Positions 10,461 through 61,166 of a stretch of 64,000 nucleotides of DNA are shown one piece after another (the first letter of the stretch is position 1; the number at the start of each line of letters is the position of its first letter). The stretch spans positions 17,205 to 81,204 of the forward strand of contig CANRIA010000007.1 of assembly GCA_947630555.1 (NCBI GenBank). The letters are read 5' to 3'. Under the pieces are notes generated by a model. It was not told where the DNA came from, did no database searches, and was given only the letters and a program-made list of their open reading frames with translations. Made by a program: the position numbers and the translations under genes. This DNA comes from an uncultured Clostridia bacterium. GTDB taxonomy: Bacteria > Bacillota > Clostridia > Oscillospirales > Ruminococcaceae.

Positions 10461-10491
10461 CAGATAGCTCAGAATTTAAACTGCGATAGAT

Positions 10492-10833
10492 TTATTTGCA
10501 AATACTGCATTCTTTTGGAAACATTTTAGTCTTGTCATACTCTTTGAATATCTCTCCCAGCAGAGCCAGCGCCACAAAATCTATTTCAAACTCATCTGTA
10601 GTTGTTGCCCAGCAATTGCTGCAATTTTTAAATTCAACCACTTTGTTTGCACCAAGCTGACGTCTGTCAGGGAATTTTGAAAGCAGATCCTTGTGTATGG
10701 TTATCTGACCGTCGCATATTTTGTCGTTGTTGTAATGCACGGGGTTTTCACGGTTGAAGCTGCCGTATTTGTAGCAAACAACGCTTTCGGTTTCTTCCGT
10801 CAGATAAGCTAAGCCTTTGACTTCATTACTCAT
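10492..10833 (-). CDS. Small soluble protein of unknown function
   Basis: 113 aa with ATG at 10833 (MSNEVKGLAYLTEE), preceded by SD gagg at 8-nt spacing; the track's GTG at 10842 sits inside that SD. Four or more cysteines are present, including CSNCW near residue 73 and CSIC at the C-terminus, so a metal site is possible but unproven. No family recognised. It lies alone between repeat R1a and a strong hairpin terminator. Confidence 0.75.
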   Translation of the reverse strand: MSNEVKGLAYLTEETESVVCYKYGSFNRENPVHYNNDKICDGQITIHKDLLSKFPDRRQLGANKVVEFKNCSNCWATTTDEFEIDFVALALLGEIFKEYDKTKMFPKECSICK

Positions 10834-10924
10834 AATTTTCACCTCAAATTTATTTTATTTTGCGCTATCGCGCAGCCTGCTGGAGCCACACATTGACCGT
10901 CTGCAAGCAGTCGGTCAAGTGCAG

Positions 10925-10971
10925 AAAAAATCCCTCGCCGCCGACCGTTTATGGCGGCGAGGGATTTTTTC
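10925..10971. terminator. Strong bidirectional hairpin terminator
   Basis: AAAAAATCCCTCGCCGCC and its perfect complement surround a 10-nt loop, giving A/T runs on both sides. It can stop transcription from the AraC gene side (minus) as well as plus-strand readthrough. The rest of 10834-11082 holds GC-rich spacer repeats (gcgctccatgcgc) and no gene. Confidence 0.75.
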
Positions 10972-11082
10972 GGGGTGGCTTGGAGGCTAAAGCCGACAAG
11001 ACACTGCGCTCCATGCGCCACGCGTAAGCGTATAAATTCTGATTTATCTCATTATACCACAAAAACAAAGAAAGGTCAAACA

Positions 11083-21568: not shown

Positions 21569-22465
21569 ATGATAAGCATAAAAATACCTGCAACGAGCGC
21601 AAATCTCGGTGCAGGTTTTGATGCTCTCGGGCTGGCGGTAAGCCTGTATAACTACGTCGAAATGGAGGAGAGCGACAAAGTCGAGATAATCTCCGCCGAC
21701 GGCACTAAGATACCGACAGATGAGAGCAATATGGTGTATATTGCAGCGCGCGACCTGTTTGAAGTGTGCGGCAAAAAGCTGCACGGTCTTAAAATACGGC
21801 AAACCAACAACATACCCATGACAAGGGGCTTAGGCTCGTCGTCTGCCTGTATAGTCGCAGGGCTTGTGGGCGCAAACAAGCTGCTGAAATCGCCCTTAGG
21901 CAATAACGATATAGTCGACCTTTCCGCGCAGATAGAGGGTCACCCCGACAACACCGCGCCTGCGCTTCTTGGCGGTATAGTTACGGCGGTGTTTGACGGC
22001 AGAAAGGTTCACTGGGTAAAGCAGGAAGTGTTTACTAAACTGAAACTTGCCGCTGTGATACCGGATTTTGAACTGAGCACTACAAAAGCGAGAGCCTGCC
22101 TGCCAAAGCAGATAGACTTTCGCGATGCTGTTTATAATCTTTCAAGAGCCGCGCTGTTTTCGGCATCTCTCTTAACAGGCAAGTTTGAAAACCTTAAAAC
22201 AAGCGTTGATGACAGGCTTCACCAGCCCTATAGAATGGAGCTTATCCCCGGCGGCAAAGAGGTCTTTGAGATTGCCTATGCCCACGGCGCTTATGCTGTA
22301 TATGTCAGCGGCGCAGGGCCTACGGTAATGGCAATAGCAGACGAGGACAACGAATTTTTTGCAGGCAAGGTGCAGTTTTCTTTAGATAACGCAGGGCTTA
22401 CAGGCTGGAAAGTGCACGAGCTGAAAATAGACAACTGCGGTACGCAGATACTAGGTACGAATTAA
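21569..22465 (+). CDS. thrB: Homoserine kinase
   Basis: 298 aa GHMP kinase that phosphorylates homoserine. N-terminal SANLGAGFDALGLA, ATP-binding MTRGLGSSSACIVAG, and C-terminal SGAGPTVMAIA are diagnostic. It lies 18 nt after hom, completing the ACT-hom-thrB order; thrC is not in this window. Confidence 0.96.
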   Translation: MISIKIPATSANLGAGFDALGLAVSLYNYVEMEESDKVEIISADGTKIPTDESNMVYIAARDLFEVCGKKLHGLKIRQTNNIPMTRGLGSSSACIVAGLVGANKLLKSPLGNNDIVDLSAQIEGHPDNTAPALLGGIVTAVFDGRKVHWVKQEVFTKLKLAAVIPDFELSTTKARACLPKQIDFRDAVYNLSRAALFSASLLTGKFENLKTSVDDRLHQPYRMELIPGGKEVFEIAYAHGAYAVYVSGAGPTVMAIADEDNEFFAGKVQFSLDNAGLTGWKVHELKIDNCGTQILGTN

Positions 22466-22488
22466 CATAACAATTGCCCCTTTTTAAT

Positions 22489-22986
22489 ATAAATCGGAAT
22501 TTATTAAAGCAAAGAAGATGGTAAAATGAGTAAAAAGTTAAGTATTATTTTGAAAATCATTTTTGAAACTATTATTGTATTTATTGAAGAGCATCTTTTC
22601 TATGTTACCATTTTAAGTAACGCCATGACTAAACGAAGTTTGATTATGTGGCTCACATTTATTTTCGGTTCGATTATTATTTCTGTTATAAACATTGTTT
22701 TTGTTTACATTTCAACAAAAAATATAGAATTAAAGCTAAAGAACATTTCTTTTCTAATTATATCTTCTATACTAGCAAGCATTGTCATATTAATATTATC
22801 CTTGTTATTTGATAAAGATTTTTTAGCATTGGTAGATTACAGAAACGAAATTGATTATTTTACAATTCTAATACTCTCAGTTTTAATTGATATATTGACA
22901 AGTATTTTTGTGTTGTTATTAAAAATACTTGTAAAAACCAAACACTAAGACTTAGTAATGCAAATTCTGATTTATCTTAGGAACAC
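22489..22986. repeat. Inverted termini flanking an AT-rich ORF
   Basis: ATAAATCGGAATTTA (22489-22503) and, inverted, AAATTCTGATTTATCTTA (22962-22979, extending GGAACAC) bound the 140-aa membrane ORF. The same termini bound the repeat at 46112-46413, including the ATCTTAnGAACAC extension at the right end. A non-autonomous mobile unit with cargo is inferred. No clear target duplication was found. Confidence 0.5.
22526..22948 (+). CDS. AT-rich membrane protein of unknown function
   Basis: 140 aa with four predicted membrane segments (for example SLIMWLTFIFGSIIISVINIVF and ISFLIISSILASIVILILSLLF). Codon use is strikingly AT-rich (Ile, Leu, Lys with A/T third positions), unlike the GC-richer genes on both sides, suggesting recent acquisition. 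The SD is weak (gaagatgg). It lies between inverted termini shared with a repeat at 46 kb. No family recognised; an immunity or stress membrane protein is possible but unsupported. Confidence 0.65.
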   Translation: MSKKLSIILKIIFETIIVFIEEHLFYVTILSNAMTKRSLIMWLTFIFGSIIISVINIVFVYISTKNIELKLKNISFLIISSILASIVILILSLLFDKDFLALVDYRNEIDYFTILILSVLIDILTSIFVLLLKILVKTKH

Positions 22987-23012
22987 AATTTACCAAAGGC
23001 GGTGAACTACAT

Positions 23013-23726
23013 ATGAAAGGCAGATTTTTAAGCGGTATGCGTGACGGCATACCCATTGCGCTGGGATACCTTTCTGTGTCGTTCACTTTTGGCATTAAAG
23101 CCGTAAACGACGGCTTGTTTTGGTGGGAAGCGCTGCTTATCTCGATGACCAACCTTACCTCGGCTGGGCAGCTTGCAGGTATATCTGTGATCGCAGCAGG
23201 CGGCTCTCTTGTAGAAATAGCCATGACGCAGATAATCATCAATATGCGTTACGCGCTGATGTCTCTCTCCCTCACGCAGAAGCTTGACAAACACTTCACC
23301 AAAGGCAAACGCTGGCTTGCTGGCTTTGGCATAACAGACGAGATATTCGCCGTTGCAAGCGGCAGGCTGTGCGATGTAACCGTTTCGTATATGGCAGGGC
23401 TTATTACAACGCCGTTTGTCGGCTGGTCGCTCGGCACGGCTCTGGGCGCTCTGGCAGGCAATGTTTTGCCGCCATCGGTGCAGTCGGCGCTGTCGGTCGC
23501 TATATACGGAATGTTCGTTGCAATATTCGTTCCGCCTATGAAAAAGCACAAGAGCATTTTCTTTGTGGTAATGCTGGGTATAGCGCTGAGCTGCTGCTTT
23601 AAGTGGCTGCCGCTGCTTGGCAGAGTGTCTTCGGGCTTTGCAATAATAATCTGCACCGTGATAGCCGCAGCAGTCGGCGCAGTTGTATTCCCTGTAGATG
23701 ACGCAGAAAGCGAGGGCGCAGCATGA
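23013..23726 (+). CDS. azlC: AzlC family branched-chain amino acid exporter subunit
   Basis: 237 aa with about six membrane helices. GMRDGIPIALGYLSVSFTFGI and the downstream SAGQLAGISVIAAGGSLVEIAMTQIIINMRY are typical AzlC. With AzlD it forms an exporter for branched-chain amino acids or analogues. SD ggcggtg precedes the ATG. Its end overlaps the azlD start (ATGA), so the pair is coupled. Confidence 0.93.
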   Translation: MKGRFLSGMRDGIPIALGYLSVSFTFGIKAVNDGLFWWEALLISMTNLTSAGQLAGISVIAAGGSLVEIAMTQIIINMRYALMSLSLTQKLDKHFTKGKRWLAGFGITDEIFAVASGRLCDVTVSYMAGLITTPFVGWSLGTALGALAGNVLPPSVQSALSVAIYGMFVAIFVPPMKKHKSIFFVVMLGIALSCCFKWLPLLGRVSSGFAIIICTVIAAAVGAVVFPVDDAESEGAA

Positions 23727-24040
23727 GTTTTGAAAAATTTTTGCCATACCTCGCGGTAATGGCAGTAGTTACATATCTTATAAGAGCAGTGCCGTTTGCC
23801 TTGTTCAGCAAGCAGATAAAAAGCCGCTTTGCCAAAAGTTTTCTTTACTATGTGCCGTATGCCGTGCTGGCGGTAATGACCGTCCCTGAGATATTTTTCT
23901 CCCCTGACATGATAATTGCAGGCGTTGCGGCTCTGGCGGTGGCAGTGCTTTTGGCGTATAAAGAACGCGGTCTTCTTACAGTCGCGATGTGCTGTTCAGC
24001 AGCAGTTTTTGTTACGGAGCTTATCGCGAAGCATATATAA
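23723..24040 (+). CDS. azlD: AzlD family branched-chain amino acid exporter subunit
   Basis: 105 aa with three or four helices (VMAVVTYLIRAVPFALFSKQI, YYVPYAVLAVMTVPEIFF), the usual small partner of AzlC. It starts inside the azlC stop. The stop lies 20 nt before the sRNA promoter of locus A. Confidence 0.92.
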   Translation: MSFEKFLPYLAVMAVVTYLIRAVPFALFSKQIKSRFAKSFLYYVPYAVLAVMTVPEIFFSPDMIIAGVAALAVAVLLAYKERGLLTVAMCCSAAVFVTELIAKHI

Positions 24041-24095
24041 AATGCGCTTTTCAAAAAGCCTTGACAAATAAATTTTTTTGGTGTATAATATAAAT

Positions 24096-24187
24096 AGAAA
24101 AAGAGATACCGGCTGGTACGATAGCGGCTATCTCCCAAGATTATAGTTAAAATAACCGTTTGCTTGGAAGGTCAGCGGTTATTTTTT
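24096..24187 (+). ncRNA. Putative antitoxin sRNA, locus A
   Basis: Promoter TTGACA (24061-24066), 17-nt spacer, TATAAT (24084-24089). The predicted RNA starts with a hairpin closed by GAGAUA/UAUCUC, then CUCCCAA, and ends at AATAACCG...CGGTTATT plus a U-run. That terminator overlaps the toxin stop codon on the other strand. CUCCCAA is perfectly complementary to UUGGGAG at the toxin SD. Four related copies exist (B-E). Transcription is inferred. Confidence 0.65.
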
Positions 24188-24268
24188 CTTGATATTTTTT
24201 ATAATCTCGTTTATACAAACGAGAATTATTATGAATAAAATCAATACAAGAATATCAATAATACTCAC
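24179..24268 (-). CDS. Small hydrophobic peptide, putative type I toxin, locus A
   Basis: 29 aa, MSIIDILVLILFIIILVCINEIIKNIKKK, with a GTG start and SD gggaggtgg. One membrane helix followed by a Lys-rich tail is the usual form of type I toxins that insert in the membrane. It is too short for the ORF track. The mRNA leader carries CUCCC and AACC, which can fold back on GGUUGGGAG and hide the SD. The convergent sRNA overlaps its 3' end. Nearly identical in locus E (two substitutions). Confidence 0.65.
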   Translation of the reverse strand: MSIIDILVLILFIIILVCINEIIKNIKKK

Positions 24269-24367
24269 AAATACCACCTCCCAACCCTATGTATTCAGAC
24301 ATAAGTCCGGACAAGGTTATAAGGGAGTATAGCCGCTACCGTTTTCGTACTTCACCGGTACAAATAT

Positions 24368-24397
24368 ATTATAACATATTCAGTCGATACTTGTCAA
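24368..24397 (-). promoter_or_regulatory. Toxin promoter, locus A
   Basis: TTGACA, 18-nt spacer, TATAAT on the minus strand; leader of about 90 nt before the GTG. Confidence 0.6.
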
Positions 24398-24455
24398 CTC
24401 GCGCAGATTTCAAAAAGCCCTTGACAAATGTTTTTCTGTGGTGTATAATATAAAT

Positions 24456-24547
24456 AGAAAAAGGAGCACCGGCTGGTACGATAGCGGCTGTCTCCTCTAA
24501 ACAACGATTGAATAACCGTTCAGCATTGGGAGCGAGCGGTTATTTTT
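24456..24547 (+). ncRNA. Putative antitoxin sRNA, locus B
   Basis: Promoter TTGACA (24421-24426), 17-nt spacer, TATAAT (24444-24449). The 5' hairpin is closed by GGAG/CUCC instead of GAGAUA/UAUCUC. The CUCCU that follows matches AGGAG upstream of the toxin B start, a change in step with locus A. Terminator AATAACCG...CGGTTATT with U-run. Confidence 0.65.
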
Positions 24548-24620
24548 TCTTGATATTCTTAATGATCTCATTTATTACAATGAGAAGCACTATGGTCAGA
24601 GCAATACTTGCTATATCCAT
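24540..24620 (-). CDS. Small hydrophobic peptide, putative type I toxin, locus B
   Basis: 26 aa, MDIASIALTIVLLIVINEIIKNIKKK, with an ATG start and a G-rich SD (aggagtgggggtg). It has the same C-terminal NEIIKNIKKK as loci A and D but a different hydrophobic core, so the tail is under stronger constraint than the helix. Confidence 0.65.
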   Translation of the reverse strand: MDIASIALTIVLLIVINEIIKNIKKK

Positions 24621-24720
24621 AAAATATCACCCCCACTCCTATGTATTCAGACATAAGCCTGGACAAGGTTATAAGGGAGAAATAGCCGCTACCGTTTTCG
24701 CACTTCGCCGGTGCAATTAT

Positions 24721-24847: not shown

Positions 24848-24856
24848 ATCTTTTAT

Positions 24857-24904
24857 GTCCTCGTCGATACGCAGACTAATGGGTCTGCTCCCGACGTATC
24901 GGAC
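24857..24904 (+). ncRNA. Structured 5' leader RNA, copy 3 of 3
   Basis: GUCC-UCGUC-GAUACG-CAGAC...GUCUG-CUCCCGA-CGUAUC-GGAC. The loop differs (uaaugg instead of the 4-nt loops of copies 1 and 2) while the stems are kept. Opposite orientation to copies 1 and 2 on the chromosome, yet again in the sense of its downstream gene. Confidence 0.5.
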
Positions 24905-24966
24905 AATTGGATAATACCGAACACTTCATACAAAATATATACATTTACATTTTAAGGAGCAGCAAC

Positions 24967-46111: not shown

Positions 46112-46413
46112 ATAAGATAAATCGGAATTTATCTGCTGTGCCTGTTTTTCTTTTGGGGAAAACCTTTCTGAATAAAGGTTGTTCCCCATACCCCTTTCCA
46201 AAGACTTTTATATTGTTTTTTGGCGAGGGGTAATGCCTTTGATAAATCAGCGATAAATTGTAAGTTATCTGTTTTTTAAGAGAACAATTACCCCTCGCCA
46301 AAAAATACAGAAGTTTTAGTGAGGGGGCTTGGGGGAAGACCCTTTTTCAAAAGGGTCTCCCCCAATAGCAAGGCAGATATAGCGGACAAAATTCTGATTT
46401 ATCTTATGAACAC
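46112..46413. repeat. Structured repeat R1, copy c, with outer inverted termini
   Basis: The R1 core (46141-46365, inverted relative to copy a) is nested between ATAAGATAAATCGGAATTT (46112-46130) and the inverse AAATTCTGATTTATCTTAT (46389-46407). The same outer termini flank the AT-rich ORF at 22.5 kb. It lies inside the regulatory gene run between the RsbW-like and HydS-like genes. Confidence 0.7.
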
Positions 46414-57050: not shown

Positions 57051-57088
57051 AATACCACCTCGCACAATATGTATCATGTCATATAATT

Positions 57089-57136
57089 GTCCGATACGTC
57101 GGGAGCAGACCCTTTGGTCTGCGTATCGACGAGGAC
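57089..57136 (-). ncRNA. Structured 5' leader RNA, copy 2 of 3
   Basis: Same stems and bulges as copy 1; apical loop on the minus strand is aaag in place of aaaa. It lies about 40-90 nt before the start of the 36-aa membrane protein gene. Confidence 0.5.
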
Positions 57137-57144
57137 ATAAATAT

Positions 57145-57196
57145 ATAATAAAATCATTTATGATTTTATTATAACATATTCGCGCGAACATTTCAA
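57145..57196 (-). promoter_or_regulatory. Promoter with start-site palindrome, copy 2 of 3
   Basis: TTGAAA (57196-57191), 17-nt spacer, TATAAT (57173-57168). The 13-bp-arm palindrome is identical to copy 1. It probably drives the 36-aa gene, ung, the isomerase gene and the SIMPL gene. Confidence 0.6.
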
Positions 57197-60380: not shown

Positions 60381-60512
60381 ATCAAACACCTCCTGCAAAA
60401 TACAGCTTATACTGTTACAATATTATTATACCACATCTTATTGCCTTATGTCAACCCACGCACCCAGCAAAAAAGTCTTGACAAATAATTTTCTGTGGTG
60501 TATAATATAAAT

Positions 60513-60604
60513 AGAAAAGAGATACCGGCTGGTACAATAGCGGCTATCTCCCAATACTGTTATTCAGAATAACCGTTTACTTGAGAGGTGGGCGGTTATT
60601 TCTT
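60513..60604 (+). ncRNA. Putative antitoxin sRNA, locus D
   Basis: Promoter TTGACA (60478-60483), 17-nt spacer, TATAAT (60501-60506). The 5' hairpin is the same as locus A except for one loop base. Terminator AATAACCG...CGGTTATT; the toxin stop codon is within the terminator. Confidence 0.65.
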
Positions 60605-60676
60605 CTTGATGTTTTTAATAATTTCGTTTATCAAAACGAGGATTATTATAAGCAATACTGCCGCAGCAATATCCAT
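60596..60676 (-). CDS. Small hydrophobic peptide, putative type I toxin, locus D
   Basis: 26 aa, MDIAAAVLLIIILVLINEIIKNIKKK; ATG start with ggggg SD. Shares its N- and C-termini with locus B and its promoter region with locus E. The track's 60-aa version extends through the leader and has no supported start. Confidence 0.65.
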   Translation of the reverse strand: MDIAAAVLLIIILVLINEIIKNIKKK

Positions 60677-60792
60677 AACATCACCCCCATTCCCTATGTA
60701 TTCAGACATAAGTCCGGATAAGGTCATAAGGGAGAATAGCCGCTTTCCGTTTTCGTACTTCGCCGGTATATGTGCCATGTTGACACAAGTAT

Positions 60793-60822
60793 ATTATATC
60801 ATATCTTGTCTCTTTATGTCAA
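60793..60822 (-). promoter_or_regulatory. Toxin promoter, locus D
   Basis: TTGACA, 18-nt spacer, TATAAT on the minus strand. Confidence 0.6.
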
Positions 60823-60880
60823 CCCACGCACCCAGCAAAAAAGTCTTGACAAATAATTTTTACCGGTGTATAATATAAAT

Positions 60881-60975
60881 AGAAAGAGGAGTATTGGCTA
60901 CATACGATAGCGGTTATCTCCCGAATACTTGATTAAAAAATAATCGCAGCATTTTGGTAGAGTGTGCGGTTATTT
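60881..60975 (+). ncRNA. Putative antitoxin sRNA, locus E
   Basis: Promoter TTGACA (60846-60851), 17-nt spacer, TATAAT (60869-60874). It is the most diverged sRNA: AGCGGUUAUC instead of AGCGGCUAUC, and the same C-to-U change appears in the toxin E leader. Terminator AATAATCGCA...TGCGGTTATT. Confidence 0.6.
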
Positions 60976-61059
60976 TTTTCGGATATTCTTTATAATTTCG
61001 TTTATGCAAACGAGAATTATTATGAATAATACCAATACGAGAATATCAATAATACTCAT
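60970..61059 (-). CDS. Small hydrophobic peptide, putative type I toxin, locus E
   Basis: 29 aa, MSIIDILVLVLFIIILVCINEIIKNIRKK, ATG start, SD ggggggtg. It differs from locus A by only two residues (Val/Ile, Arg/Lys) although the surrounding RNA has diverged, which suggests selection on the peptide. Confidence 0.65.
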   Translation of the reverse strand: MSIIDILVLVLFIIILVCINEIIKNIRKK

Positions 61060-61166
61060 AAATATCACCCCCCGTTCCCCTATGTATTCAGACCAAAGTC
61101 CGGAAATAGGATAGGATGGGAGTATAACCGCTGCCGATGTCGTATTTTGCCGGCGCTCCACTTATA

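Follow-up and report, generated by a model that had tools for sequence, protein, structure and literature searches.

Within the 64,000-nucleotide stretch of an uncultured Clostridia bacterium analysed here (the window, from genome G000), one AT-rich ORF lies between thrB and azlC, bounded by a short sequence and its approximate inverse. A first-pass annotation proposed that such termini delimit non-autonomous units whose content may be a structured repeat or else a cargo gene. The locus raises the question of what this unit is, how widely its bounding sequences occur, and by what means its contents might be exchanged. The features concerned are listed by window position and strand.

21569..22465, +, upstream flank, thrB (homoserine-kinase-like GHMP kinase)
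22470..22475, no strand, left ACAATT copy, possible target duplication; single copy in the empty site of G002
22486..22502, +, 5′ (gene-start) site AATATAAATCGGAATTT, exact copies across genome and family
22526..22948, +, cargo ORF, 140-aa multi-helix membrane protein, 23% GC
22962..22979, −, 3′ (gene-end) site, reading AAATTCTGATTTATCTTA on the + strand
22980..22990, no strand, outer right extension GGAACACAATT, partly common to the 46-kb unit
22985..22990, no strand, right ACAATT copy, possible target duplication with 22470-22475
23013..23726, +, downstream flank azlC, used as probe to locate the orthologue of this site in nine sister species
46114..46406, +, second unit, same site pair around the non-coding R1 hairpin repeat; inverted in G009
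10464..11050, −, third unit, composite: R1 remnant, 116-aa ORF (10492-10842, −), part of R2, and right site (11034-11050)

A membrane-protein gene between two unequal sites

The cargo ORF is far poorer in GC than its neighbours (23% compared to ~50%), as had been noted. Its start codon lies 37 nt from the beginning of the 14-nt core of the 5′ site (ATAAATCGGAATTT, 22489-22502) and its stop codon 13 nt short of the 3′ site; inspection by eye recognised no promoter belonging to the ORF. Pfam searches of the 140-aa protein gave nothing significant, no homologue was present in phage records, and an Rfam search of the window returned no match. A structure model predicts four long helices with a pLDDT of 58, a confidence too low for use.

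The termini, originally described as 20 bp long, are genuine, although the conserved site spans ~17 bp (AAGATAAATCRGAATTT). The pair ATAAATCGGAATTT / AAATTCTGATTTATCTTA does enclose the ORF, but one member is not the exact inverse of the other: the site carries CGG at the gene-start end and CAG at the gene-stop end. Repeat R1 at 46 kb is flanked by the same pair (46114-46130 and 46389-46406), whereas the outer sequence ATCTTAnGAACAC, thought to be shared, is common to the right side only. The terminus-like sequence spotted near 11035 is real and forms the right end of the composite unit.

Abundance, anatomy and context of the units

In the window alone, a pattern allowing 3 mismatches gave 7 matches compared to 3.2 expected, barely over chance. 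Searching the whole genome, as the first-pass annotation had suggested, gave a count far above chance: the exact 14-mer ATAAATCNGAATTT occurs 19 times in the 1.9 Mb of G000 (8 forward, 11 reverse), compared to 0 for the reversed control and ~0.1 expected from composition. Sites in G000 occur as inverted pairs. The gene-start consensus is AAgATAAATCGGAATTT and the gene-end consensus AAATTCTGATTTATCTTa, and the two sites of a pair are complementary at 13.8 of 17 positions on average. Most sister genomes contain the motif, with several copies each in G001, G002, G006, G008 and G009, as do other genera of the family; controls are near zero.

The 18-bp gene-end site was also sought in 84,980 species, in which at least 116 stretches matched. 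Ruminococcus predominates among the matches listed, which include R. albus, R. flavefaciens (007c, MA2007, Y1 and ATCC 19208), Ruminococcus sp. (YE71 and FC2018) and many rumen MAGs. A minority of the listed matches fall in unrelated phyla, lack a partner site and were set aside as chance. Seven 3′-site matches in viral contigs were likewise attributed to chance, because none has a convincing partner site.

We collected 43 complete units once artefacts were removed, ~40 of them different. Most of the genomes are MAGs, some units stop at contig breaks, and the counts are lower bounds. A single ORF (median 174 aa) takes up almost the whole of each complete cassette, with the start codon ~30 nt from the beginning of the 5′ core. 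In 23 of the 43, the ORF ends at a stop codon that the 3′ site forms or contains (at +2, +9 or +19), and 12 ORFs therefore carry site-encoded tails, KF or NSDLS. Gene polarity is fixed with respect to the sites: among 21 loci picked without regard to polarity, the variable middle base is G in 20 of the 5′ sites and A in 19 of the 3′ sites. In 41/43 cases the cassette ORF has a higher AT content than its flanks; the mean difference is 12.7 points.

Cargo identified by Pfam comprises GNATs, isochorismatase, cytidine deaminase, VanZ, methyltransferase, S66 peptidase, CAAX protease, alpha/beta hydrolases, FMN reductase, nitroreductase and a uridine-kinase-like protein; many further products are membrane proteins without recognised identity. 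Besides the 140-aa gene, G000 has cassettes for an isochorismatase (contig C5, PF00857), a 156-159-aa membrane protein (C15) and, identified by eye, an acetyltransferase-like protein whose gene has its two ends at the ends of contigs C4 and C24. None of the complete units examined contains a recognisable recombinase or transposase, which supports the proposal that the units are non-autonomous. The units are promoterless single-gene cassettes or non-coding repeats between a site pair, and the system is much larger than the repeat-or-gene units initially envisaged.

Among the non-coding fillers, R1 is ~290 bp long, and the 46-kb copy folds end to end into a single 292-nt hairpin (z = −11.7). Site pairs in G000 also enclose R2-type repeats. 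In the window, R2-type repeats are present in many copies and both orientations (33.7-34.6, 47.8-48.1, 50.2-50.9, 53.5-54.1 and 63.9 kb); these fragments carry TCTTGTCAAGAAA...AAGTTTTCGGTC and CTTTTTCAAAAGG, and longer versions fill cassette sites in sister species. Other lineage-specific non-coding fillers (GTGCTAGCGCGCACGGCGCT..., GTAGGGGACGCCGC...) are found in the same site pairs in a CAMZIK MAG (L222, L241, L247, L270) and an R. flavefaciens MAG (L238), in the position that R1 takes in the window genus. The window has further repeats: tandem-like units of ~360 bp (CCTATGTATTCAGACATAAG..., GATACCGGCTGGTACGATAGCGGCTATC) form two clusters 36 kb apart (24000-24712 and 60417-61104), and a 95-bp repeat starting TATAATTGTCCGATACGTCGGGAGCAGACC is 99% identical at 2090-2184 and 57082-57176 and lies inverted at 24852-24919.

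Many cassettes in Ruminococcus, and in the window-genus member G006, sit in a stereotyped frame, here called the platform. Its left part consists of an outer repeat (CATATAGAAGTTTT), a terminator-like hairpin (CCATAGTATTTCTGA...TCAGAAGTACTATGG), a promoter (TTGACA-17-TATAAT) and the 5′ site; the gene, the 3′ site, a terminator (GCCCCGAAGCG...CGCTTCGGGGC) and the inverted outer repeat follow. Ruminococcus platforms share sequence over ~110 bp on the upstream side and 80 bp on the downstream side. Diverged copies with hypothetical genes are present on the R. albus 7 megaplasmids pRUMAL01 and pRUMAL02, and G008 has a complete Ruminococcus-type platform in which R1 replaces the gene. Platform-free cassettes exist as well. 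The phage collection yielded one partial platform match only.

In six platforms examined, the entire frame lies between the arms of a locus-specific inverted repeat, with T-rich sequence next in most. The arms at L190, L197, L213, L240, L257 and L262, compared to the empty locus L335, resemble host intrinsic terminators. By this arrangement, the platform appears as if it had been inserted in the loop of a host terminator. Two related R. albus-group genomes differ by one complete platform. At one R. flavefaciens 007c locus (L278), a second gene-end-like site, AAATTCTGATTTAGCTTAGTAAC, lies just upstream of the 5′ site, which suggests two adjoining platforms.

Exchange of cargo at fixed positions and between flanks

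Comparison of orthologous intervals revealed different contents within the same flanks. Even at a single chromosomal position, the site pair of one sister species may enclose R1 and that of another R2 or one of several genes, in keeping with the repeat-or-gene idea. Between thrB and azlC, G000 has the 140-aa gene, G001, G004 and G008 have R2-type sequence, and G009 has R1. The search for an empty site also succeeded here: G002 is empty, with AACATAACAATTTACC. The azlC of G002 is 96% identical to that of G000, compared to 85% for G009; because G002 is nearer to G000 than G009 is, it may have lost a unit. The sole homologue found for the 140-aa protein (61% identity) is encoded in G001, away from this interval, between two similar lipoprotein genes and without sites; the gene therefore occurs outside the cassette system too. 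A homologous ORF at the thrB-azlC position but lacking the termini, which the first-pass annotation had named as counter-evidence, did not turn up.

Other loci behave similarly. Upstream of an LL-diaminopimelate-aminotransferase-like gene, one membrane-protein gene is found in both G000 and G008 and a different one in G009, and the outer sequence is the same on either side. At the MFS / dus-like site, G000 has an acetyltransferase-like gene, G004 a different acetyltransferase, and both G008 and G001 have R2; at the carB site, R1 is present in G000, and both G001 and G008 have R2. At the acyl-CoA synthetase site, the isochorismatase of G000 is replaced by R2-type or other repeats in other genomes. 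From the site on, the 3′ flank of R. flavefaciens 007c is 95% identical to that of a buffalo MAG, but the cargo is a 194-aa gene in one and a 515-aa gene in the other. R1 also varies in orientation, being opposite in G000 and G009 at the hydrogenase site and in G000 and G008 near an ABC-transporter gene. At the level of sequence comparison, cargo swapping at fixed chromosomal sites is shown, as are the boundaries and polarity of the cassettes.

The converse, the same cargo in different flanks, was also observed. G001, of the window genus, and G325, a Ruminococcus, share a GNAT cassette with 98.4% identity across 551 bp. Identity runs from AAATCGGAATT to ATTCTGATTTATC, and the outer DNA is unrelated: one copy sits in a Ruminococcus promoter-terminator platform, its counterpart in an intergenic region that bears no relation to it. 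Recent transfer of this cassette between genera is evident from the alignment. A methyltransferase cassette is likewise common to two genomes, with identity lost at the outer end of the 3′ site. As read from such junctions, DNA exchange must have taken place at or within the 17-bp sites, and we regard the elements with high confidence as exchangeable cassettes bounded by these sites. Several units may nonetheless be ancient and immobile.

Mechanism, rival explanations and known systems

The best explanation, to which we assign a probability of about 0.65, is that one gene (or, in other copies, a non-coding repeat) forms a mobile cassette whose two 17-bp recombination sites are inverted and differ slightly, and on which an enzyme acts in trans. 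This enzyme would recognise both sites and would insert, remove or replace the cassette at fixed chromosomal places. We place it, with moderate confidence, among site-specific recombinases rather than transposases, and it presumably acts in trans. Both replacement and inversion would be explained by a recombinase that works on inverted sites, the mechanism proposed for Xer dif modules (PMC13141974). Expression would come from an outside promoter, probably by read-through from thrB in the window and from the dedicated promoter in the Ruminococcus platform. The 3′ site provides the stop codon for many cargo ORFs. A more ambitious form of this reading, which we put forward tentatively, is an integron-like gene capture native to Ruminococcus and relatives, in which a recombinase would insert and exchange single-gene cassettes between inverted 17-bp sites in dedicated expression platforms.

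Somewhat doubtful, in our judgement, is the idea that these are classical mobile insertion cassettes or MITEs, the sites being terminal inverted repeats of an unseen IS whose DDE-type transposase would move them in cut-and-paste fashion, duplicating the target. Inverted ends, arbitrary cargo and the lack of a transposase agree with the published description of mobile insertion cassettes (PMC3913671). R1 is a multicopy, MITE-like hairpin element, and a transposase acting on terminal repeats would account for new insertions. The empty G002 site, with its possible ACAATT duplication, points the same way; this 6-bp candidate is ambiguous, however, none is established at other sites, and at the rpsU-yqeG site (L276) the intergenic regions are too divergent for such a comparison. 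Different cargo is found at the same nucleotide in sister species with the outer arms conserved, which would need repeated insertion at one base, and the ends differ in a fixed manner that sets gene orientation. Neither a parent IS, nor the trans-acting transposase with matching ends for which the first-pass annotation advised a search, nor a constant target duplication was found among the units fetched.

Homologous recombination between conserved flanking platforms, with the sites as merely the inner edge of the conserved flank, is improbable. The ~110-bp and 80-bp platform flanks would be long enough, but window-type sites have only 15-20 bp in common, and the process is unlikely where just 13-17 bp are shared. 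Moreover, the two genera that share the GNAT cassette have unrelated DNA around it, the match ending at the sites, and R1 is inverted at fixed sites. Least credible of all is that the sites are regulatory or mRNA-structure elements of a regulon (an operator, or 5′-3′ pairing): they do lie in the transcript 5′ leader and 3′ end and are mutually complementary, but they also bound non-coding R1 and R2 and mark the junctions of cargo exchange.

Candidate sources of the enzyme include a single Xer-like gene next to a mutS2-like gene. Contig C22 of G000 contains an apparent RIT (recombinase-in-trio) element (L373, 1777-5872) with three tyrosine recombinase ORFs (633, 342 and 351 aa between stop codons). 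This trio is bounded by a perfect inverted repeat of 88 bp, and a second, divergent trio follows in the opposite direction. The 88-bp repeats contain AAAATAAATCAGCACCT, which matches 12-13 of 17 site positions, an equally loose match occurring every ~1.5 kb in the locus. The trio is a possible source of trans-acting recombinases and a weak lead; given the weak resemblance, we set its products aside as the cassette enzyme. We also saw no uninterrupted joined or empty inner site, which would be palindromic; the search for one gave only unrelated terminator-like hairpins.

Besides the RIT elements, three known systems invite comparison. Mobile insertion cassettes consist of a cargo gene between inverted repeats, without an internal transposase, and are presumed to be mobilised in trans (PMC3913671). 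The units described here resemble them (e.g. MIC231 of Bacillus cereus and the qnrD mic of Proteeae) in having an inverted-repeat bracket with no transposase inside. They differ in their asymmetric 17-bp sites, fixed gene polarity, site-supplied stops and repeated replacement of cargo at one site.

Each unit, like the Xer dif modules, has inversely oriented sites around it. A dif site has two 11-bp arms and a 6-bp spacer, whereas our sites lack two clear 11-bp arms, the inner arm is conserved over only ~6-7 bp, and the units are chromosomal and single. A search of 8 genomes for a Firmicutes-type dif consensus, which may not be that of the host, gave no match with 3 mismatches allowed. In Acinetobacter plasmids, single dif (pdif) modules with inversely oriented asymmetric sites are inverted and replaced (PMC13141974).

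Open-access papers, to which the literature search was confined, contained nothing on such cassettes in Ruminococcus, and as far as searched this cassette family of Ruminococcus and related gut bacteria is previously undescribed. If our reading is correct, major rumen and gut cellulose degraders have a route of their own by which single accessory genes are exchanged between species, in many cases with expression built in; the functions swapped would include acetyltransferases, hydrolases, and immunity-like and resistance-like proteins. The site consensus makes the entire gene pool searchable, and the missing enzyme becomes a concrete target.

The third system is the integron. Integrons, with their exchangeable single-gene cassettes, are not known to be native to the Ruminococcus group, and the integron integrase model TIGR02249 gave no hit above its 265-bit curated cut-off in any of 12 genomes. 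Integron core sites follow RYYYAAC (attC) and GTTRRRY (attI), and the conserved outer GTTRCTAA of our sites does not fit GTTRRRY. Unlike integrons, the units have an inverted 17-bp pair rather than one attC per cassette, and they occur as a rule as single cassettes at dispersed loci, not in arrays. Like integron cassettes, they are filled by a single promoterless ORF, with the stop at or inside the downstream site and, in the platform, an outside promoter. Integron cassette cargo is similar in class (GNAT, isochorismatase, VanZ, hydrolases and membrane proteins), and if the integron-like reading is true, site-supplied translation stops would let arbitrary ORFs be captured and expressed.
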